Of a stretch of DNA of 40,088 nt, positions 464-40,088 are shown in pieces. Both the position numbers and the translations under genes were made by a program. This stretch comes from a virus: positions 1-40,088 of IMG/VR virus record IMGVR_UViG_3300031565_000124. The stretch is one strand, 5' to 3'. Every line of letters starts with the position of its first letter. Position 1 is the stretch's first letter. Under the pieces are notes generated by a model. It was not told the DNA's origin. It did not search any database and saw only the letters and a program-made list of their open reading frames with translations.

Positions 464-1387
464 TCACTCTCCAAACTCTACATCAAATTTATCTGCCACA
501 TGCCGCAATTTATTGCGCCCCTCATCCTGTTTATCCAGCACCTCATCATATAAATCCATATCCAAATATTTAAGTATATTGTTTTGTATAAGTTCTACCA
601 AATTTTGAGGTCTCAGTGCGTCCAACTCCCAACAATCAGTACCATATAAATCTATGTATCCTTTACTTCGAGAGTCCTTTAATTTAACCGGACTGGAGGG
701 CACATTCAATTTTTTAATCTGCGGCATTGTTAATGCCAACCATTTCACCTCTGTGAATTTTAAACCAAAAGTTTTTAACCTGTCTCGTATGTCCCGAGCA
801 ATATCTATGCCAGTAGGGTCATGATCTCCCAGGTACAAAATAATAGGGGTAACCCCATCATTCTCGTATTTACTTAGTCTCTGAGAAGATTGCCATAAAG
901 CCGACTGAGACACATTCCCTCTACACGCAAAATATGCACAATTATAGAGATTTGCAGCTTTTCCGATAACCTCCACAAGAGCCTGTTTCTCTACCCAAAC
1001 CTCCACACGATACCGCTGACCTGCCCATTTGTCCAAGCTATAACTGCTCACAACACTGTTTATGATTTGAGGCATAGATTCCCAAATGAAGGGGGTATCC
1101 ACGGACCGTGTACGATCTTCTATACTATACCAATCAATAAGCCCGGCTAATCGGGCCTTGCTTATTATTGCCCCCAGATTCTTGTAATTTTTTTCCATAT
1201 TTTTACTGCCCGTTACCGGATCTATCCAGCTATCAGGAAAGCTGTCTTTAGAAATAAATAGATAATATAATTGTCTCAAAGTCAAATCAAACCCTTCAGC
1301 CCTCATTCCATCAATATATTTCTCCGCATTATTAACAATATTTTTTGTCTCTTCTCTAAACCTGTATTCAATATATTTTATTTTCAT
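464..1387 (-). CDS. Topoisomerase VI subunit A/Spo11-like TOPRIM protein
   Basis: 307 aa. An N-terminal segment contains TLRQLYY (residues 36-42), which resembles the winged-helix region carrying the catalytic tyrosine in Topo VI A/Spo11. The TOPRIM domain follows, with a likely metal-binding Glu near 133 (VEVWVEKQAL) and GDHDPTG with Asp188 and Asp190, matching the DxDPxG signature of this branch. Known: Topo VI A cleaves DNA through the tyrosine and uses TOPRIM-bound Mg2+. Proteins of this length with an AIISKARLAGLIDW-type motif are widespread in phages and bacteria and are uncharacterised. No GHKL ATPase (B subunit) is visible in the window. It is the last gene of the leftmost minus operon. 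Family assignment is firm; activity is unknown. Confidence 0.8.
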   Translation of the reverse strand: MKIKYIEYRFREETKNIVNNAEKYIDGMRAEGFDLTLRQLYYLFISKDSFPDSWIDPVTGSKNMEKNYKNLGAIISKARLAGLIDWYSIEDRTRSVDTPFIWESMPQIINSVVSSYSLDKWAGQRYRVEVWVEKQALVEVIGKAANLYNCAYFACRGNVSQSALWQSSQRLSKYENDGVTPIILYLGDHDPTGIDIARDIRDRLKTFGLKFTEVKWLALTMPQIKKLNVPSSPVKLKDSRSKGYIDLYGTDCWELDALRPQNLVELIQNNILKYLDMDLYDEVLDKQDEGRNKLRHVADKFDVEFGE

Positions 1388-1493
1388 GTCCTTATCCTCT
1401 TGTGTTTTTCCCTCTTATTTTTTTTTTTTTTGGGGTAACTTTCGTCAACCTGCTTCTTTACACTCCCCATTTAATTACTTTTTTTTAATTATA

Positions 1494-1514
1494 TTATCCC
1501 CACTGCTCGGCCAT
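1494..1514 (-). pseudogene. C-terminal remnant of a methyltransferase-like gene (MAEQWG)
   Basis: A six-codon open frame (MAEQWG, stop) follows the gene at 1519-1824. Its DNA at 1500-1517 is identical over 18 bases, in reverse complement, to 13126-13143, which encodes the C-terminal AMAEQW of the plus-strand methyltransferase. This suggests the tail of a second copy of that gene was left here after a deletion. Chance identity is possible but unlikely at this length. Confidence 0.4.
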
Positions 1515-1518
1515 TGCA

Positions 1519-1824
1519 TCACTCCTTATCCTTAAAAATAATATCATTCTTATTGACAAATACTATGTTGTTGTAACTAATAAGTACTTTATAAAAGTTT
1601 ACCCTTTTCCTGTTTTTAAGTTCCGCTGGCTCAAAATCATCATAAAAGGGCGCTGTTCCGGGATTTCCTTTAACATAATCCCCGCTATATTTATAAAATT
1701 CTCCTATGATATACCCTTCACTTTTTTGAGAATACCTATTTTTATATGATGGAACTCTTTTATTGCCTCTGTATTTCATTTTTTTTAATATTCGTGTAAA
1801 GCTCACTTTTTTGTACTCCTCCAT
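1519..1824 (-). CDS. hypothetical basic protein
   Basis: 101 aa, rich in Lys, Arg and Tyr, with a strongly basic N-terminal half and alternating hydrophobic/charged residues near the C-terminus that suggest a small beta-rich domain. The start has a GGAGTGATGTAAT leader with an adequate Shine-Dalgarno. It lies between the methyltransferase and the TOPRIM gene in one minus operon. No family recognised. Basic charge is compatible with nucleic acid binding, but no motif supports it. Confidence 0.6.
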   Translation of the reverse strand: MEEYKKVSFTRILKKMKYRGNKRVPSYKNRYSQKSEGYIIGEFYKYSGDYVKGNPGTAPFYDDFEPAELKNRKRVNFYKVLISYNNIVFVNKNDIIFKDKE

Positions 1825-1855
1825 ATTACATCACTCCTTTAATTATACTATTATT

Positions 1856-2467
1856 TTACGGGTTGGCCTCAAAAAAGGCCCGAGCAAATCCTTGACTGCA
1901 TAAAGATCTCAAATCCGCATCCGTTTTAACACTATCAATAAATGGCTCAAATTCAGGAATACGAAAAACATCATTTTTGTGTAAATATGCCAAAGACGGT
2001 TTGAGTCGATTAGGTCGTATATAGAGTTTATCATTCGTTCGCACATCGGACCAGCCAAAAAACAGTTTTTTTGGTATATTGAATTGGCCCCACAAAGCGG
2101 TTTTCTTTGTCCAGGGGGAACCATATTCCCAGGGCTGATAAAAAAAAACAGGCTTTCCCAGATAACTTTTAAGCGTCCCGTTGGCTGGGTTTTCCAGTAC
2201 CCACCAGACCGGACTGCACTCCTGTATTATCCTTTGACAGTGTTTCACCATGGTCAAATCCGCGTCTGCGTTATGGAGTTGAAAACCCTTAAGGGTTGAA
2301 AATTCCGTACATACCGGATTAGCAATTATGCCGTGTATTTCCAAATCTGCACTATAATTTTCAACACCTATCTCCTGCCCTATCTGTATAACATTATACG
2401 CTTCAGACTTCCGGTAATAAAAAGAATCGCTGCCTATATCCGCACACAAATGCAGTATATTTCTCAT
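1856..2467 (-). CDS. minimal cytosine-C5 DNA methyltransferase-like protein
   Basis: 203 aa, Dcm-like core without a target-recognition domain. The N-terminal LHLCADIGSDSF resembles SAM-binding motif I. ANPVCTEFS (Cys53) stands where motif IV normally reads PPC, and LENPANG (Glu92-Asn93-Pro94) matches the catalytic ENP/ENV motif VI. GSPWTKKTALWG is also typical of these short phage enzymes. Known: the motif IV Cys attacks C6 of cytosine. The Pro-to-Val change before Cys is unusual, so activity needs testing. Its start overlaps the stop of a possible tiny upstream frame (ATGA). A second methyltransferase of equal length lies at 12544-13155. No partner endonuclease is visible. Confidence 0.7.
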   Translation of the reverse strand: MRNILHLCADIGSDSFYYRKSEAYNVIQIGQEIGVENYSADLEIHGIIANPVCTEFSTLKGFQLHNADADLTMVKHCQRIIQECSPVWWVLENPANGTLKSYLGKPVFFYQPWEYGSPWTKKTALWGQFNIPKKLFFGWSDVRTNDKLYIRPNRLKPSLAYLHKNDVFRIPEFEPFIDSVKTDADLRSLCSQGFARAFFEANP

Positions 2468-2529
2468 TCTATCAACTCCAAAACCCCTGTTAATTTTTCC
2501 CTCACCACTTCCAGTCGCTCAGCAGCTAT
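2464..2529 (-). CDS. possible very small gene, non-ATG start
   Basis: An open frame reading roughly IAAERLEVVREKLTGVLELIE ends with TGA overlapping the ATG of the methyltransferase. An AAGGGG element lies about 8 bases before the ATA codon at 2529. The sequence is an amphipathic helix and the ATGA overlap suggests coupling, but there is no standard start (GTG codons at 2508 and 2505 are the nearest alternatives). It may be a remnant. Confidence 0.22.
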   Translation of the reverse strand: MAAERLEVVREKLTGVLELIE

Positions 2530-2542
2530 TTTTAATCCCCTT

Positions 2543-2854
2543 TTATATATAATTTTCTATTTCCCGTTTTATGTATTTTATGGCACTAACCCGCTTACAT
2601 TCTTTATCAAACAGGCGCGCCTGTTCCTCCATATATATTTCAAATGTGATATCTATATCATCGGAGGCACTTTTCAATTTTCTTTGGAAATATGTACATG
2701 CCATAGTGTTGTATTCTTTTACTGTGCCATCCGGATAAGCAATACAGCTTTGCCCGTACGTTGTCTGGTCTCCGGCTGTATGGAAAGAAAAAGGCTTTTT
2801 CAGCCTTTGTGCAAGATCTGTAACAATTTCTCTTTTAGTCCTTCGATTGGTCAT
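2543..2854 (-). CDS. hypothetical protein
   Basis: 103 aa starting MTNRRTKREIV. This ATG is chosen because AGAGGAG lies 9-10 bases upstream; a longer version from 2887 would place that Shine-Dalgarno inside the gene. The N-terminus is very basic, the middle carries GQSCIAYPDGTVKEYNT, and the C-terminal part is helical and charged. No family recognised. It follows the 83-aa gene closely in the same operon. Confidence 0.6.
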   Translation of the reverse strand: MTNRRTKREIVTDLAQRLKKPFSFHTAGDQTTYGQSCIAYPDGTVKEYNTMACTYFQRKLKSASDDIDITFEIYMEEQARLFDKECKRVSAIKYIKREIENYI

Positions 2855-2886
2855 TTTTTTTTTAATCTCCTCTCTTTTTATTACCA

Positions 2887-3138
2887 TTATAGCAGACTCT
2901 TCAAAAAATCAGCCATTTTCTCACCACCGGTTTTTTTGATGAAATCCTCAAGACTGCCGTGAACATCTACGTAATAGCCTAAATGCTCTTCCGCATAATC
3001 AGTAAATTTTATTATGTCTAAATGGAAACAATTCGTTGCCACTGATATTAAATTATCACAGAAATAAATTATTTTTACTCCGTATAAGTTGTTAAACTCT
3101 TTCACTTTCTGTTGGTCCAAATTTTTCATGAATGTCAT
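2887..3138 (-). CDS. hypothetical protein
   Basis: 83 aa, mixed alpha/beta with no recognised motif. GGAGGA stands about 10 bases before the ATG. Its 5' end overlaps the 3' end of the upstream 172-aa gene by 47 bases in another frame, typical of phage accessory genes. Function unknown. Confidence 0.55.
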   Translation of the reverse strand: MTFMKNLDQQKVKEFNNLYGVKIIYFCDNLISVATNCFHLDIIKFTDYAEEHLGYYVDVHGSLEDFIKKTGGEKMADFLKSLL

Positions 3139-3610
3139 TGGGTGTATTCTCCTCCGCAGATTTTTTCAACTCCTCAATTTTGTTGTTTATTCTACTCAGC
3201 TCCTTTTCAAGCCGCTCTTTTTCTTCCAAAAGAGTTTTTAAAATACCCTCTTTGGATTCTTTGGCCTTGTTCGCCGCATCGATTGCCTGTATTGCGGTAT
3301 CATATTCTACAATGCTGATCTCTTTTTCTGTTATTGTTTTTATGACTCCATACCATCGTGTACGCTTTGGATTCCCTCCACAGGAATAGTAATCCGCTCC
3401 GAATTCTACCGGGTCATTGATTTCCAGCCCTTCCACGTCGTAATAATACACGCCGTTGGATTTGTCCTGAAAGTTCCTATGCAGACCGCCTGGCTTGTGT
3501 GGATCCTTCCTTATTACTGCCATCCAATTTTTGCCTCTGCTGTGCCTCTCAAAACAGGGAACCTCCAGGAGGCTTCCAAGTTCTATTTTAAATTTTTCCT
3601 GTTTGCTCAT
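3092..3610 (-). CDS. hypothetical protein with C-terminal coiled coil
   Basis: 172 aa. Residues 1-110 look like a compact beta-rich domain (NGVYYYDVEGLEINDPVEFG, then RTRWYGVIKTI). Residues 111-155 form a Lys/Glu-rich coiled coil (LLEEKERLEKELSRINNKIEELK), suggesting oligomerisation. Its ATG overlaps the stop of the upstream gene (ATGA). The DNA around its start, GAGGTTAAACAAATGAGC, is repeated at the starts at 3879 and 4177, and the N-terminal residues MSKQEKF match MSRQEKF and MSQQEEY there. Function unknown. Confidence 0.65.
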   Translation of the reverse strand: MSKQEKFKIELGSLLEVPCFERHSRGKNWMAVIRKDPHKPGGLHRNFQDKSNGVYYYDVEGLEINDPVEFGADYYSCGGNPKRTRWYGVIKTITEKEISIVEYDTAIQAIDAANKAKESKEGILKTLLEEKERLEKELSRINNKIEELKKSAEENTPNDIHEKFGPTESERV

Positions 3611-3879
3611 TTGTTTAACCTCTTCCCTCCCTTAAGATCCCGGCCTATTAGGCCGAGTGTAAATGCGAGTCTTTCTTTTATGTCCGGAAACAGCTTTTCC
3701 GGCGTATCCAGATCAAACCGTTCAATCATATGCGCCTTAAATCTCAGTACATCTTTTCCATCCTCTAATCCTTCCACAAAAAAACAGTCAAACACATTGT
3801 AAGGGCAAAGGTTGAATAGCTCTGCACTCTCTCTTACTTTACGGCCGAGTTCATTATAGAATTTTTCCTGTCTGCTCAT
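3607..3879 (-). CDS. hypothetical protein, first gene of the left minus operon
   Basis: 90 aa starting MSRQEKFYNELGRKV. It is mostly helical and ends GGKRLNK; the codons of that tail double as the initiation region of the next gene. It is the promoter-proximal gene of the left minus operon, behind a (TTTAATC)n repeat and one arm of the divergent inverted-repeat promoter. AGAGG lies 8-9 bases before the ATG. No family recognised. Confidence 0.6.
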   Translation of the reverse strand: MSRQEKFYNELGRKVRESAELFNLCPYNVFDCFFVEGLEDGKDVLRFKAHMIERFDLDTPEKLFPDIKERLAFTLGLIGRDLKGGKRLNK

Positions 3880-3892
3880 TTGTTTAACCTCT

Positions 3893-3934
3893 TTTAATCT
3901 TTAATCTTTAATCTTTAATCTTTAATCCTTAATC
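3893..3934 (-). repeat. heptanucleotide leader repeat (GATTAAA in sense)
   Basis: Five perfect copies and one variant copy of TTTAATC (GATTAAA in the minus-strand mRNA) lie between the promoter and the Shine-Dalgarno of the 90-aa gene. The mirror-image array upstream of the plus operon has ten copies. The sense strand contains no C and should be unstructured. Confidence 0.85.
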
Positions 3935-3936
3935 CT

Positions 3937-3974
3937 TATATTTATAATATACAAAACCATACAGAAAAGTCAAG
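3937..3974 (-). promoter_or_regulatory. divergent promoter, minus arm
   Basis: This is the exact reverse complement of 4044-4081 over 38 bases. Read on the minus strand it gives TTGACT, 16 bases, then TATATT, a plausible sigma-70-type promoter driving 3879 to 464. The 69 bases between the two arms are almost pure A/G on the plus strand, like an UP element or a regulator site. Confidence 0.65.
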
Positions 3975-4043
3975 GAAAAAAGATAAAAAAAAGGGAAAAA
4001 TGATAAAAAAAATAACATGAAAAAGAAAAAATAAAGAAAAAAG

Positions 4044-4081
4044 CTTGACTTTTCTGTATGGTTTTGTATATTATAAATATA
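4044..4081 (+). promoter_or_regulatory. divergent promoter, plus arm
   Basis: TTGACT at 4045-4050 and TATATT at 4067-4072 with a 16-base spacer; the segment matches the minus arm perfectly. It drives the four-gene plus operon 4177-5046. The TTTTGTAT stretch before the -10 also occurs in the promoter upstream of 12227, suggesting a shared promoter class. Confidence 0.65.
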
Positions 4082-4083
4082 TG

Positions 4084-4153
4084 GATTAAAGATTAAAGAT
4101 TAAAGATTAAAGATTAAAGATTAAAGATTAAAGATTAAAGATTAAAGATTAAA
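4084..4153 (+). repeat. heptanucleotide leader repeat, 10 x GATTAAA
   Basis: Ten perfect copies of GATTAAA fill most of the 5' leader between the plus-arm promoter and the first start codon at 4177. After the array the sequence GGTTAAACAA is itself duplicated (GGTTAAACAAGGTTAAACAA). Confidence 0.9.
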
Positions 4154-4176
4154 AAAGGTTAAACAAGGTTAAACAA

Positions 4177-4245
4177 ATGAGCCAGCAGGAAGAATACAAA
4201 AAACAAATAGACAAAATGAATGTTATAACGGAGTACATTTCATGA
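4177..4245 (+). CDS. 22-aa leader peptide MSQQEEYKKQIDKMNVITEY...
   Basis: A short frame starting in the same GGTTAAACAAATGAGC context as the genes at 3610 and 3879, with a matching N-terminus (MSQQEEY versus MSRQEKF). It ends TGA, overlapping the ATG of the next gene by ATGA. It may be a truncated relative of the two minus genes or a leader whose translation controls the downstream gene. Confidence 0.5.
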   Translation: MSQQEEYKKQIDKMNVITEYIS

Positions 4246-4466
4246 AACTACGAAAAACTGACAATGGTTTTGAGATACTTGATAGTGTTGGAGATTCCTT
4301 GATACTTATAACATCAAAAGGAGAAATGTATTCGGCGATGTGGAAAAGATTAACAATAGGGCAAGAAAATTATATATGGAATTGGGTAAGTAAACAGGTG
4401 TCTATACCCTTTGAGCTTGAGGTATTGATCCCGTTTGACACTAAAAATCCTTTTGGTATAGGATAG
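4242..4466 (+). CDS. hypothetical protein
   Basis: 74 aa with no recognised domain; it reads as a small beta-rich fold (NGFEILDSVGDSLILITSKG). Its ATG overlaps the stop of the 22-aa leader, so translation is probably coupled. A TAACGGAG element lies upstream. Confidence 0.6.
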   Translation: MKLRKTDNGFEILDSVGDSLILITSKGEMYSAMWKRLTIGQENYIWNWVSKQVSIPFELEVLIPFDTKNPFGIG

Positions 4467-4477
4467 GAGGCAGGATA

Positions 4478-4726
4478 ATGAGTATAAATAGAATGAAACA
4501 AGATATTATTAGGGATAAAAAAAAGAGGAAACTTATTTGTGAATTAGCAACTAGGTACTGTAACAAAATAAAAGAACAGGGATCAAAAATATATTATTGG
4601 CCGGTAGACTTCTACTGTCAATTTGAAAATAAAAATTTTCGTGAATTATATGCAATAAGAAAAAAGTGGGATACTCTTGAAAAGATACATAAAAAATATA
4701 GTTGTACAAGTACAAAAGAAGAATAA
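4478..4726 (+). CDS. hypothetical basic protein
   Basis: 82 aa, strongly Lys-rich and helical. GGAGG stands 7 bases before the ATG, one of the best Shine-Dalgarno elements here. No family recognised. It lies between the 74-aa protein and the Cys-rich protein in the same operon. Confidence 0.65.
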   Translation: MSINRMKQDIIRDKKKRKLICELATRYCNKIKEQGSKIYYWPVDFYCQFENKNFRELYAIRKKWDTLEKIHKKYSCTSTKEE

Positions 4727-4728
4727 CA

Positions 4729-5046
4729 ATGGCGCTTGAAAAAGATCTATTAAGAAGCATAAAGGATAACTGCCCGAAACACTGCCGACGATGCAATTTT
4801 ACTTTTATTTCCTGCAAAAGTAAAACATTCGGGTGTCAAAAAACGCAGGAGAAATGTCCGTCTGATCCCCTGGACTGCCCTGTTATGATGGACCTTCCGG
4901 AATTGTGCAGACACTGTGAAACCCTCCTGGCGTGCTGTTTTGACGGCGATGCGGAACTGCCTCCTGATAACGTGTTAAGCAATATATGTCAGGAAGAATT
5001 GAAAAAGTATCGGCGAAAATTGGAAATAGAACAGGGAGACGTATAA
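4729..5046 (+). CDS. Cys-rich, probably zinc-binding protein
   Basis: 105 aa starting MALEKDLLRSIKD. This ATG, two bases after the upstream stop, is preferred over an overlapping start at 4702. About a dozen cysteines are clustered (CPKHCRRC near 15-22, then CQ, CP, CP, CRHC, CC), consistent with one or two zinc-ribbon-like knuckles. The C-terminal third is helical and charged. No named family recognised. It is the last gene of the short plus operon. Confidence 0.65.
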   Translation: MALEKDLLRSIKDNCPKHCRRCNFTFISCKSKTFGCQKTQEKCPSDPLDCPVMMDLPELCRHCETLLACCFDGDAELPPDNVLSNICQEELKKYRRKLEIEQGDV

Positions 5047-7923: not shown

Positions 7924-8082
7924 TTATATCCTGCTTAAAATAAATATCAATAGGCCGCCAAGACCCATAATTATAACCAGACAGATAGATATTAAATACC
8001 ATAGAATTTTTATTTGGTTATCCCGTGTTTTACAATATTTTTGGTAGATCCTGTTTGCTTTTTTAGCCTGTTTTCCGCTCAT
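7924..8082 (-). CDS. small membrane protein, one TM segment
   Basis: 52 aa (MSGKQAKKANRIYQKY...). A basic N-terminal half is followed by a hydrophobic segment around residues 27-49 rich in Leu and Ile. Positive-inside charge predicts a cytoplasmic N-terminus. The initiation region is weak, with no clear Shine-Dalgarno, and a competing 10-codon frame starts 14 bases upstream. It lies just downstream of a 27-nt poly-A tract (sense). It could be a holin-like or exclusion protein. The remaining bases from 7802 to 7923 hold nothing recognisable. Confidence 0.4.
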   Translation of the reverse strand: MSGKQAKKANRIYQKYCKTRDNQIKILWYLISICLVIIMGLGGLLIFILSRI

Positions 8083-8094
8083 TCGTTTTGCTCA

Positions 8095-8121
8095 TTTTTT
8101 TTTTTTTTTTTTTTTTTTTTT
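8095..8121 (-). repeat. 27-nt homopolymer (poly-A in sense)
   Basis: An uninterrupted T27 on the plus strand, read as A27 on the transcribed minus strand. It is preceded by ATGTCC, so the tract encodes nine Lys codons and then TGA at the present length. A tract this long should be unstable in replication and prone to transcriptional slippage. Confidence 0.9.
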
Positions 8122-8810: not shown

Positions 8811-9171
8811 TTACTCCCCTTTCAGTTTCTTAATATATTTCAATATACCTATCCGGGTAAAATTGTGCTTTTATTTAAATCCTCGAATTTTTTACCTGGC
8901 CCAGGCCCAGGTGGTAGGAAAGTTTCCAGGCTTCAAAGGCCGCAAGTACCTCAACCTCACCGGTGATGTAATGGCTCGGGTGGTTTACCGGATCATTTGA
9001 TTGGCCGGTTCCCCTTAAACACCCTATGTGGTTTTTGTTTGTTTCATTATTCATTTTATTCATTTTATTCATTTTATTCATTTTATTCATTTTATTCATT
9101 TTATTCATTTTATTCATTTTATTCATTTTATTCATTTTATTCATTTTATTCATTTTATTCATTTTATTCAT
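8811..9171 (-). pseudogene. broken DUF3310-family gene with (Met-Asn-Lys)n N-terminus
   Basis: The intact frame (8875-9171, 98 aa) begins with 13 Met-Asn-Lys triplets, then a linker, then DPVNHPSHYITGEVEVLAAF, a clear DUF3310 N-terminal half. After LSYHLG, where the family normally continues NAIKYI.RAG, the frame runs into LGQVKNSRI and stops. In the other frames the matching tail pieces remain: GKKFEDLNK at about 8875-8901, then ILKYIKKLKGE ending at 8811. So a deletion and at least one frameshift removed the middle of the domain. DUF3310 proteins are common in phage replication operons and lack a settled function. A truncated product may still be made; assembly error is the other explanation. 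Confidence 0.6.
9055..9171 (-). repeat. 9-nt tandem repeat, 13 x ATGAATAAA (repeated start codons)
   Basis: Thirteen perfect copies, each supplying an in-frame ATG, followed by a fourteenth ATG (ATGAATAAT). The GGA of AAAGGAA lies only 3 bases before the first ATG and 12 before the second, so initiation may favour an internal copy. Changes in copy number keep the frame. Confidence 0.92.
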
Positions 9172-9197
9172 TTTCCTTTATTGTTTTAATTCTTCTA

Positions 9198-9412: not shown

Positions 9413-9676
9413 TCACTCCTCCGGGTCCATTTCTCTTATTATATTTTGTAATGATTTTCTAAGCTCCTTGTCCTCTTTACAAATTATATTATCATAAATG
9501 TTTTTGGCATATGCGCTTGTATCCGCAGCCTGTAAAGCAACCTCTTCAGAAAAACCCCCTTTATTTTTTAGCAGCTCTGCCCAAGCTCTTTTTAATAGTG
9601 CAATACAGTTGCCATACCCATAAATATCAGCATAGTCTTTAATTGCATTTAATGCGGCTTTTTCGCTTATTTCCAT
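9413..9676 (-). CDS. hypothetical helical protein
   Basis: 87 aa, predicted all-helical and acidic at the C-terminus (ends DPEE). Its start carries CAGGAG 8-9 bases before the ATG, and this whole RBS/start segment is duplicated just upstream (9701-9730). No family recognised. Confidence 0.6.
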   Translation of the reverse strand: MEISEKAALNAIKDYADIYGYGNCIALLKRAWAELLKNKGGFSEEVALQAADTSAYAKNIYDNIICKEDKELRKSLQNIIREMDPEE

Positions 9677-9730
9677 ACTATTTACTCTCCTGTTCTATTT
9701 TTCCATACTATTTACTCTCCTGTTCCGTTT
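9671..9730 (-). repeat. 30-bp tandem duplication of an RBS plus start codon, with mini-ORF
   Basis: 9671-9700 and 9701-9730 match at 28 of 30 positions. Each copy carries CAGGAG and ATGGAA in the minus sense. The upstream copy starts a three-codon frame, Met-Glu-Lys-stop (9695-9706), ending just before the second Shine-Dalgarno, which serves the 87-aa gene. Ribosomes may initiate at the first copy, stop and reinitiate. Confidence 0.85.
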
Positions 9731-12262: not shown

Positions 12263-12303
12263 TTGTACTGAAAAGTAATACAAAACAGTACAAATATTGT
12301 CAA
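12263..12303 (-). promoter_or_regulatory. promoter for the minus replication operon with overlapping palindromic operator
   Basis: In the minus sense: TTGACA (12298-12303), 17 bases, then TATTAC (12275-12280). A perfect 8-bp inverted repeat, TTGTACTG (12263-12270) and CAGTACAA (12286-12293) with 15 bases between, overlaps the -10 and spacer. This is typical of an operator for a dimeric regulator, but no repressor gene is recognised in the window. Confidence 0.7.
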
Positions 12304-12346: not shown

Positions 12347-12375
12347 TTGACACTTTTTTCGATAAAGATTATTTT
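12347..12375 (+). promoter_or_regulatory. promoter for the plus replication operon
   Basis: TTGACA (12347-12352), a 17-base spacer and TATTTT (12370-12375). The -35 is perfect and the -10 weaker. It fires into the 15-nt repeat array that leads to the methyltransferase gene. The T-rich stretch 12304-12346 separates it from the divergent promoter. Confidence 0.55.
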
Positions 12376-12526
12376 TAGAATATAGATTTTTAGAATATAG
12401 ATTTTTAGAATATAGATTTTTAGAATATAGATTTTTAGAATATAGATTTTTAGAATATAGATTTTTAGAATATAGATTTTTAGAATATAGATTTATAAAA
12501 TATAGATTTATAAAATATAGATTTTA
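12371..12526 (+). repeat. 15-nt tandem repeat array, about 10 copies
   Basis: Ten copies of a 15-base unit (AGAATATAGATTTTT) at 15-base periodicity from 12377. The last two vary (AAAATATAG) and the array fades into AAGGATATGG before the start at 12544. There are no spacers, so it is not CRISPR. Each unit contains TATAGAT, close to a -10 hexamer. The sense strand has no C. Confidence 0.9.
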
Positions 12527-12543
12527 AGGATATGGTACTATTT

Positions 12544-13316: not shown

Positions 13317-14318
13317 ATGCGAGAAATAGGGGCAGAAGAACTTAAGGATATTTTAGAAGCACATAAAAAATGGATCTATGATTTGGTTGGGGGGAGACAG
13401 GCAGATCTTTCTGGGGCAGATCTTTCTGAGGCAGATCTTTCTAAGGCAAATCTTTCTGAGGCAAATCTTTTTAAGACAAATCTTTCTGAGGCAGATCTTT
13501 CTGGGGCAAATCTTTCTGAGGCAAATCTTTCTGAGGCAAATCTTTCTGAGGCAAAGCTTTCTGAGGCGAATCTTTCTGGGGCGAATCTTTTTAAGGCAGA
13601 TCTTTCTGGGGCAAATCTTTCTGAGGCAAATCTTTCTGAGGCAAATCTTTCTAAGGCAGATCTTTCTGAGGCAGATCTTTCTGAGGCAGATCTTTCTGGG
13701 GCGAATCTTTTTAAGGCAGATCTTTCTGGGGCAAATCTTTCTGGGGCAGATCTTTCTGAGGCGAGTCTTTCTGAGGCAGATCTTTCTGAGGCGAATCTTT
13801 CTGAGGCAGATCTTTCTGAGGCAAATCTTTCTGAGGCGAATTTTTTTAAGGCAAATCTTTTTAAGGCAAATCTTTCTGAGGCAGATCTTTCTGAGGCAAA
13901 TCTTTCTGGGGCAAATCTTTCTGAGGCAAAGCTTTCTGAGGCGAATCTTTTTAAGGCAAACCTTTCTAAAGCAAATCTTTCTAAAGCAAATCTTTCTAAA
14001 GCAAATCTTTTTAAGGCAAATCTTTCTGAGGCAAATCTTTCTGAGGCAAATCTTTCTAAGGCAAATCTTTCTGAGGCAAATCTTTCTGAGGCAAATCTAG
14101 CCTCAATTAAAGCTGACGAAAAATATCTGTCCATAATAGGTACAAAGGGTAAAATTATCGTTTTTGGCACTAGGGTATGGATAGGATGCATTGAAAATAC
14201 TATTCAAGGATGGCTTGAAAAAGGTGAAGCCATTGCTGAAGAAAATGACTATTCCAAAAAAGAAATAGAAATGTATAGGAAGTATATTTTATATATTTCT
14301 GAATATATTAAAACATGA
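13317..14318 (+). CDS. pentapeptide-repeat protein
   Basis: 333 aa. A 28-residue helical N-terminus is followed by about 47 pentads of the form A(D/N)L(S/F)x (residues 29-263) and a 70-residue C-terminal domain rich in charged and aromatic residues. Pentapeptide repeats fold as a right-handed quadrilateral beta-helix, and some (MfpA, Qnr) mimic DNA and bind gyrase. Here the pentads are far more regular than usual, with Leu at the centre and Glu, Lys or Gly in the last position. The helix has alternating acidic and basic faces, so DNA mimicry is not obvious. AAAGGAG lies 8 bases before the ATG. It stands between the methyltransferase and nuclease genes; an anti-host-topoisomerase or structural role is speculative. 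Confidence 0.85.
   Translation: MREIGAEELKDILEAHKKWIYDLVGGRQADLSGADLSEADLSKANLSEANLFKTNLSEADLSGANLSEANLSEANLSEAKLSEANLSGANLFKADLSGANLSEANLSEANLSKADLSEADLSEADLSGANLFKADLSGANLSGADLSEASLSEADLSEANLSEADLSEANLSEANFFKANLFKANLSEADLSEANLSGANLSEAKLSEANLFKANLSKANLSKANLSKANLFKANLSEANLSEANLSKANLSEANLSEANLASIKADEKYLSIIGTKGKIIVFGTRVWIGCIENTIQGWLEKGEAIAEENDYSKKEIEMYRKYILYISEYIKT
13401..14105 (+). repeat. 15-nt coding repeat underlying the pentapeptide array
   Basis: Near-identical 15-base units (gcaaatctttctgag and close variants) repeat about 47 times. Conservation extends to silent positions, so the array grew recently by slippage or recombination. It also contains repeated blocks of several pentads. Confidence 0.9.
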
Positions 14319-18343: not shown

Positions 18344-18880
18344 ATGGATTTAATGTTGGACTTGGAAACTATGGGTACAGAAATGGACGCTGTAATAGTG
18401 CAAATTGGAGCCTGCTATTTTGAGCGCTCTTTCGGGCATATATTAGGGGAGTTCCTTATAAATGTGGATATGAATTCCTGTATTGATTGGGGGCTGTCTA
18501 TATCACCCAGTACAGTATGGTGGTGGAAAAAGCAGAGTAAAGAAGCTCAAGACGCGTTAAAGACACCTGAACCGGTAAAACTGGAAGACGCTGTAGAGGC
18601 CTTCCGCGCTTTTACACAAGAAAATGATAGTGGGCATAACTGCTTTTTGTGGTGCCACCCCAATTTTGACGAGCCCATTTTAAAAAATGCTTTTAATGCC
18701 TGCGGTACAAATTTCCCTTTTAAATATTATGCTGTCCGAGACGTACGAACCGCTGTAGACTTGTCCGGAATTGATATAAGTGAAGTTGTTCAGAATGGCA
18801 CGCATCATAATGCGCTCGATGACTGCAAATATCAGGCTAGGCTGGTTTCGGAGAGTTTCAAAATAATAAATAATAAATAA
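18344..18880 (+). CDS. DEDDh 3'-5' exonuclease (Rv2179c-like)
   Basis: 178 aa. DLETMG (Asp6, Glu8), CHPNFDEPIL (Asp109) and HNALDD (His155, Asp160) give a complete DEDDh set in the pattern of the Rv2179c-like exoribonuclease family often found in phages. It may trim RNA or proofread, since the polymerase has its own exonuclease. AAGAGG precedes the ATG. The 3' end runs into the TAATAAA repeat, which supplies the last codons (NNK) and the stop. Confidence 0.85.
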   Translation: MDLMLDLETMGTEMDAVIVQIGACYFERSFGHILGEFLINVDMNSCIDWGLSISPSTVWWWKKQSKEAQDALKTPEPVKLEDAVEAFRAFTQENDSGHNCFLWCHPNFDEPILKNAFNACGTNFPFKYYAVRDVRTAVDLSGIDISEVVQNGTHHNALDDCKYQARLVSESFKIINNK

Positions 18881-18912
18881 TAAATAATAAATAATAAATA
18901 ATAAATAATAAA
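18864..18912 (+). repeat. heptanucleotide repeat, 7 x TAATAAA
   Basis: Seven perfect copies straddle the stop of the exonuclease and fill the gap before the Shine-Dalgarno (AAGGAG) of the next gene. Each unit carries TAA, so all three frames are closed within the array. Confidence 0.92.
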
Positions 18913-18932
18913 TAGAGTCATAAGGAGAGCAT

Positions 18933-36796: not shown

Positions 36797-36823
36797 GGAA
36801 TACAAATACATAAGAGAAGTCAA
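36797..36823 (-). promoter_or_regulatory. possible internal late promoter
   Basis: In the minus sense, CTTGACTTCTCTTATG and a following TTTGTATTCC strongly resemble the divergent promoter (CTTGACTTTTCTGTATGG...TTTTGTATATT) with a one- to two-base gap. The -10 (TATTCC) is weak. It lies about 35-60 bases before the start of gene A1. Confidence 0.35.
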
Positions 36824-39974: not shown

Positions 39975-40088
39975 GGCATAAAATCAACAACTCTGATATA
40001 ATTGTCAACTGCTTTTCAATAGCCATATTTAAAAAGTAAACCGGTTGACAAAAAAGTGTCAGATTTTATGTGTTGGGCGCTTCACCAC
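39975..40088. other. right genome terminus, putative cos half-site
   Basis: This leader of the late operon contains TTTATGTGTT at 40065-40074 (the reverse complement of 15-24) and 14 terminal bases. Next to it TGACA-6-TGTCA (40046-40061) forms a small palindrome, and a TTGACA in the minus sense lies at 40003-40008. These are plausible terminase-recognition or promoter elements. A convincing -10 for the late promoter was not found. Confidence 0.5.

Follow-up and report, generated by a model that had tools for sequence, protein, structure and literature searches.

Organisation of the locus

The window analysed here, 40,088 bp in length, spans the whole of the virus record. The record is that of a tailed phage, with genes for a lambda-type portal, a Clp-type protease and a capsid E protein, and its terminase has a relative in Wolbachia phage WO (29%). 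Its replication genes comprise a family A DNA polymerase, for which the nearest phage stands at ~32%, together with a VapE-like primase, an SNF2-type helicase and an ssDNA-binding protein. No close relative was found in IMG/VR, the GTDB genomes or the phage collection: the 172-aa protein of Table 1, the primase and the helicase retrieved no relatives as IMG/VR queries, and the 3-9 kb portion of the window matched nothing in the phage collection. The Topo VI-A-like protein was aligned with 80 loci (best identity 50%), in which the neighbouring, probably early, genes are absent. Rfam and tRNA scans gave no hits. At the two ends of the record (1-40 and 40040-40088), AACACATAAA is located near TTGACA and TGACA, respectively, in opposite orientations; these are perhaps related end or promoter sequences.

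Near 4 kb, two operons face away from one another, and both are probably early (Table 1). The 90-aa protein that opens the left operon has no match in Pfam, PHROG, PADLOC or phage tblastn searches. On the right, a leader peptide could be specified by the 22-codon ORF, with coupling to the ATG at 4242.

Table 1. Features of the divergent locus, in order of position
Feature	Position	Strand	Remarks
Left operon, remainder	464..3138	-	
Topo VI-A-like protein	464-1387	-	Left operon; phrog_6247
DNA methyltransferase-like protein	1856-2467	-	Left operon
172-aa orphan protein, MSKQEKFKIELG...	3092..3610	-	C-terminal coiled coil by weak matches
Start module copy of 172-aa ORF	3605..3620	-	ATGA overlap with 3' end of 90-aa ORF
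90-aa orphan protein, MSRQEKFYNELG...	3607..3879	-	First gene of left operon
Start module GGTTAAACAAATGAGC of 90-aa ORF	3874..3889	-	Exact copy
Left leader array, GATTAAA x6.6	3893..3938	-	Two variant units adjoin promoter
Left promoter arm, CTTGACTTTTCTGTATGGTTTTGTATATTATAAATATA	3937..3974	-	Exact 38-nt copy of 4044-4081; 10/12 sigma-70 match
A-tract purine-rich centre, shared upstream of both promoters	3975..4043	.	69 bp
Right promoter arm, identical to left	4044..4081	+	Exact copy; 10/12 sigma-70 match
Right leader array, GATTAAA	4084..4153	+	10 perfect copies
Doubled AAGGTTAAAC unit	4153..4176	+	Two SD-like AAGG ahead of ATG 4177
Start module copy of 22-codon ORF	4167..4182	+	Exact copy
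22-codon ORF, MSQQEEYKKQIDKMNVITEYIS	4177..4245	+	Stop overlaps ATG at 4242
Right operon, three small orphan ORFs	4242-4466, 4478-4726, 4729-5046 (4242..5046)	+	

Putative twin promoters around a centre of predicted curvature

The same predicted promoter stands in front of both operons, once in each orientation. The outward-facing arms are perfect over 38 nt with 69 nt between them, which bears out the claim of an earlier sequence-only reading that a perfect 38-bp inverted repeat flanks 3975-4043. Together with the heptamer arrays, the likeness reaches 82 nt at 98% (3893-3974 / 4044-4125), and it runs on through the GATTAAA arrays into the Shine-Dalgarno sequence (SD) and the start, the first mirror mismatches being a base just past the 38-mer, another in the second repeat unit and the array copy number. 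Across 1.48 Mb in 106 viral sequences, the window among them, and with thresholds of 24 nt or more for the arms and 20-400 nt for the spacer, these arms form the longest closely spaced perfect inverted repeat, and the sole other case at these thresholds is a runner-up outside the window with 27-nt arms. Within the 40,088-bp record the promoter 30-mer had no second match at up to three mismatches, and 100 shuffles gave none either, while the promoter 24-mer gave 0 matches in IMG/VR and 0 in the GTDB genomes. The mirror arrangement is real and is not a product of chance. An inverted repeat in L019 (7722-7861), considered as a parallel case, was rejected because it does not lie between divergent genes.

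Each arm carries a -35 TTGACT with a -10 of either TATATT (spacing 16) or TATTAT (spacing 18), and the two -35/-10 promoters stand back to back with an operon after each, as is expected of a divergent sigma-70-type pair. The arms would act as sigma-70-type promoters, this promoter type being an assumption for the host. Against this reading, the TTGACT...TATATT match is good without being perfect, and sigma-70-like matches in 20 kb exceed those in shuffles by little (79 vs 64). The promoter family TTGAC-N11..15-TTTGTAT is represented by 4 sites against 0.02 expected, an expectation that is optimistic because the pattern was fitted post hoc and some of the sites were already known. All four are correctly placed and oriented upstream of genes, the two additional ones preceding the ssDNA-binding protein gene (12278-12303(-)) and gene 36764 (36800-36823(-)). 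An exact dyad, TGTACTG-N15-CAGTACA (12264-12292), lies over the -10 region of the promoter-like site that precedes the ssDNA-binding protein gene; it was set aside as a possible operator, there being one exact copy only.

Inverted arms that are perfect over 38 bp and nearly so over 82 bp, with 69 bp between them, are consistent with the earlier suggestion that recombination between them could flip the centre, which would make it an invertible switch. We regard such a switch as highly improbable. In an inverton, the promoter lies between the inverted repeats and its direction changes on inversion; here the promoters sit inside the arms, both facing outwards, and even if inversion occurred it would therefore alter the orientation of the centre only, leaving both operons with the same promoters. 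In addition, no recombinase was present among the 30 proteins scanned with Pfam (part of the ORFs), and intramolecular homologous recombination would have to act across a loop of 69 bp, which is short for it.

The centre itself had been described as purine-only and as a possible regulator site; the first description does not hold and the second found no support. Purines occupy 62 of its 69 positions (90%), the other 7 being pyrimidines (6 T and 1 C), and its predicted curvature (Bolshoy wedge model) is within the top 0.3% of the window's 69-nt stretches. It includes two 20-bp repeats, 94% alike, at 3974-4012 (TRF), which might be read as an operator for a phage repressor or activator governing both promoters. 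We consider this unlikely, since low-complexity A-tract DNA accounts for the repeats, the centre contains no dyad, and no candidate HTH regulator was found among the proteins scanned. A replication origin, with an A-rich unwinding region between iteron-like heptamers and inverted repeats, would agree with AT-rich, curved and repeated DNA within the DNA-metabolism half of the genome. It is nevertheless quite unlikely, as GC skew tracks gene direction throughout, with no separate origin sign at 4 kb, and as the arrays run precisely up to SD/start sites, while others of this kind also precede late genes (21860). Strongly curved A-tract DNA suits a shared curved or UP-type region, and we propose that the centre would serve as an UP-element-like spacer shared by both promoters, which fits better than a switch.

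Repeat leaders and copied start modules

GATTAAA repeats do follow both promoters, as had been noted, but the two arrays are unequal (6.6 vs 10 copies) and the right one adds the doubled AAGGTTAAAC unit. From the likely transcription start, the 5' leaders consist nearly entirely of GAUUAAA repeats. Their predicted folding energies, -2.0 and -0.1 kcal/mol, are weaker than those of 93% and 99% of shuffles, and both leaders are predicted to be essentially unstructured, whereas the start at 3610 is preceded by a predicted hairpin. An unstructured A-rich leader ahead of an SD should favour ribosome loading. Both arrays stop 14-24 nt short of the ATG.

The start module GGTTAAACAAATGAGC is found as an exact 16-nt sequence exactly three times in the record, a count that no shuffle matched, and the recurrence of start and N-terminus at 3610, 3879 and 4177 is thereby confirmed. 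The copies at 3610 and 3879 are alike over ~35 nt of coding sequence (MS[KR]QEKF..ELG), and the copy at 4177 is alike for about 20-25 nt (MSQQEEY) and then diverges, so that identity fades past about 7-12 codons. The copy at 3610 consists of an SD, a start and about 12 codons, with neither promoter nor array. The inverted duplication of promoter, leader and start that had been put forward is thus well supported, but the idea that all of them spread together does not extend to the 3610 copy, which is a start module alone. In IMG/VR, the GGTTAAACAAATGAGC 16-mer is present in 16 contigs, with one copy in each, and this set was judged to be at chance level. A 27-nt poly-T (8095-8121), part of which could be sequencing error, is followed on the minus strand by ATGAGCAAAACGAATGAGC, a weak fourth relative of the start module.

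The 38-bp arms have a sharp boundary 1 base upstream of the -35, and the copy stops inside the first codons, which suggests that template switching produced the inverted duplication. The 3610 copy starts from its SD (AAGAGG), which points to a shorter module having been copied directly, 269 bp away.

Repeat arrays in front of start codons

Over the window as a whole, 7 of the 9 non-coding arrays lie within 30 nt upstream of a start codon against 1.24 expected, and 0 of 20,000 random placements in the gaps reached 7, the start codons having been chosen by the analyst. In the DNA-metabolism half the arrays front genes 3879, 4177, 8082 and 9676, and in the structural half gene 21860, genes 12532 and 18933 being the other two; the AAATAAT array at 18861-18914 ends 19 nt ahead of an ATG. 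Non-coding tandem arrays number 10 in 40 kb here vs 20 in the 1.17 Mb of 80 other phage loci, a density about 15x higher.

Several repeats involve the start itself. A 30-bp tandem duplicate at 9670-9729 takes in a whole RBS+ATGGAAA start, its upstream copy encoding a three-residue peptide (MEK), and ATGAGC is doubled at 8077-8096, as is AAGGTTAAAC at 4153-4176. ATGAATAAA x14 (9047-9174) is in frame at the start of ORF 9171(-) and yields a row of possible start codons (MNKMNK...). Eleven copies of the 15-bp unit ATTTTTAGAATATAG (12371-12533) run into the SD/ATG of gene 12532, and the last of them resembles the start region (ATTTTAAGGATATGG). Elsewhere, about 47 units of a 15-bp array code for a pentapeptide-repeat protein (13317-14318). 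Since repeats cluster at starts and the start is in places itself repeated, the mirror promoters are one case of this genome's unusual repeat activity at gene starts.

It can be hypothesised that this reflects a genome-wide habit of slippage-prone repeats before starts, whose copy number would act as a hypermutable knob on the length of the leader and on expression; the twin promoter would then be one instance combined with one inversion. We hold this to be a serious possibility, although at less than an even chance. The placement and density of the arrays, the start duplications at 9670-9729, 9047-9174 and 8077-8096 and the different GATTAAA copy number of the two arms are all consistent with it, and a precedent exists in the 7-bp repeats of hmw1A, which give less expression with more copies (PMC8262952). 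However, the arrays sit upstream of the SD, and SD-ATG spacing and frame are therefore independent of copy number. The association of GATTAAA arrays with starts is, moreover, weak both in bacteria (21/93 sense vs 12/93 antisense) and in other phage contigs (6/20 vs 4/20). Being weakly tied to starts elsewhere, the motif is not a universal signal, and its candidacy as a universal leader element was abandoned as unsupported in bacteria and weak in other phages; even so, clear start-linked cases are found in L089, L090, L091 and L183. The unrelated viral contigs L090, L091 and L182 carry several GATTAAA-type heptamer arrays each, some directly before starts. That tandem repeats before starts act throughout the genome as evolvable expression dials, with new genes formed as copied promoter-leader-start heads on unrelated bodies, appears doubtful.

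Discussion

Known precedents cover one aspect each of the locus. The Start-Associated Sequences (SAS/ESAS) of Cluster K mycobacteriophages are likewise short conserved RBS sequences before unrelated early-type genes, and may overlap the stop of the preceding gene (PMC3203893). Half of them have inverted repeats upstream, but these form a 17-bp dyad, whereas the inverted repeat described here is the promoter pair (PMC3203893). SAS (GGGATAGGAGCCC, 13-bp type) also occurs 11-19 times per genome and ends ahead of the start codon (PMC3203893), while the present module has 3 copies, a different sequence, and includes the ATG and 7-12 codons. The TAACTGA heptamer arrays of Beggiatoaceae, Cyanobacteria and Bacteroidetes are, like ours, period-7 direct repeats immediately before start codons, for which S1/Csp binding or slippage has been proposed (PMC4679880). 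They belong to cellular genomes, phages going unmentioned in that paper, and usually lack an SD (PMC4679880), whereas here the units are GATTAAA and AAATAAT and an SD lies between array and ATG. Heptanucleotide tandem repeats are also found in the promoter/leader region of hmw1A/hmw2A of Haemophilus influenzae, where expression is set by repeat copy number; these are single bacterial adhesin genes with two promoters and without mirror duplication (PMC8262952), while the copy-number difference here is between two arms of a single assembled sequence. In SIRV2, one promoter-containing sequence precedes unrelated small early viral genes, as here, but this is an archaeal virus with a BRE/TATA promoter (PMC11065993), unlike the sigma-70-type one proposed above. 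Shared start modules may, like the shared promoters of SIRV2, be a mark of early anti-host genes, and an anti-defence role of the genes described here might be guessed by analogy. Among open-licence papers, no phage was found that combines a mirror-copied promoter, a repeat leader and a start; the arrangement is an unusual combination of known kinds of parts.

We propose, as the probable explanation, that an inverted duplication of one expression head now starts two divergent phage operons from the same signal. The head that was copied would comprise a sigma-70-type promoter, the GATTAAA leader, the SD, the ATG and a few initial codons. Both outward promoters would recruit host RNA polymerase, each aided by the curved A-tract centre as UP-element-like DNA, and both mRNAs would open with an unstructured GAUUAAA-repeat leader that ends in the same SD/start. 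This common leader and SD/start would give the two operons matched timing and strength, and the pair would probably be early. The sequence itself shows the duplication, where it is bounded, and the arrays; matched output, early timing, activity of the promoters and the UP function of the centre are inferred from it. Phages usually balance divergent operons with promoters that differ; in this locus a single promoter is duplicated in mirror image, leader and start included. Slippage-adjustable expression is known for bacterial contingency loci, and if repeat leaders do tune expression, this phage would have numerous dials of that sort. Of the leads from this work, the most interesting is that tandem repeats are placed at start codons genome-wide. 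Start modules have also been copied without the rest of the head, as in the 3610 copy, and grafted onto unrelated gene bodies. Recombination of the 3610 copy with the 3879 copy would cleanly delete the 90-aa gene, leaving the 172-aa gene under the promoter.
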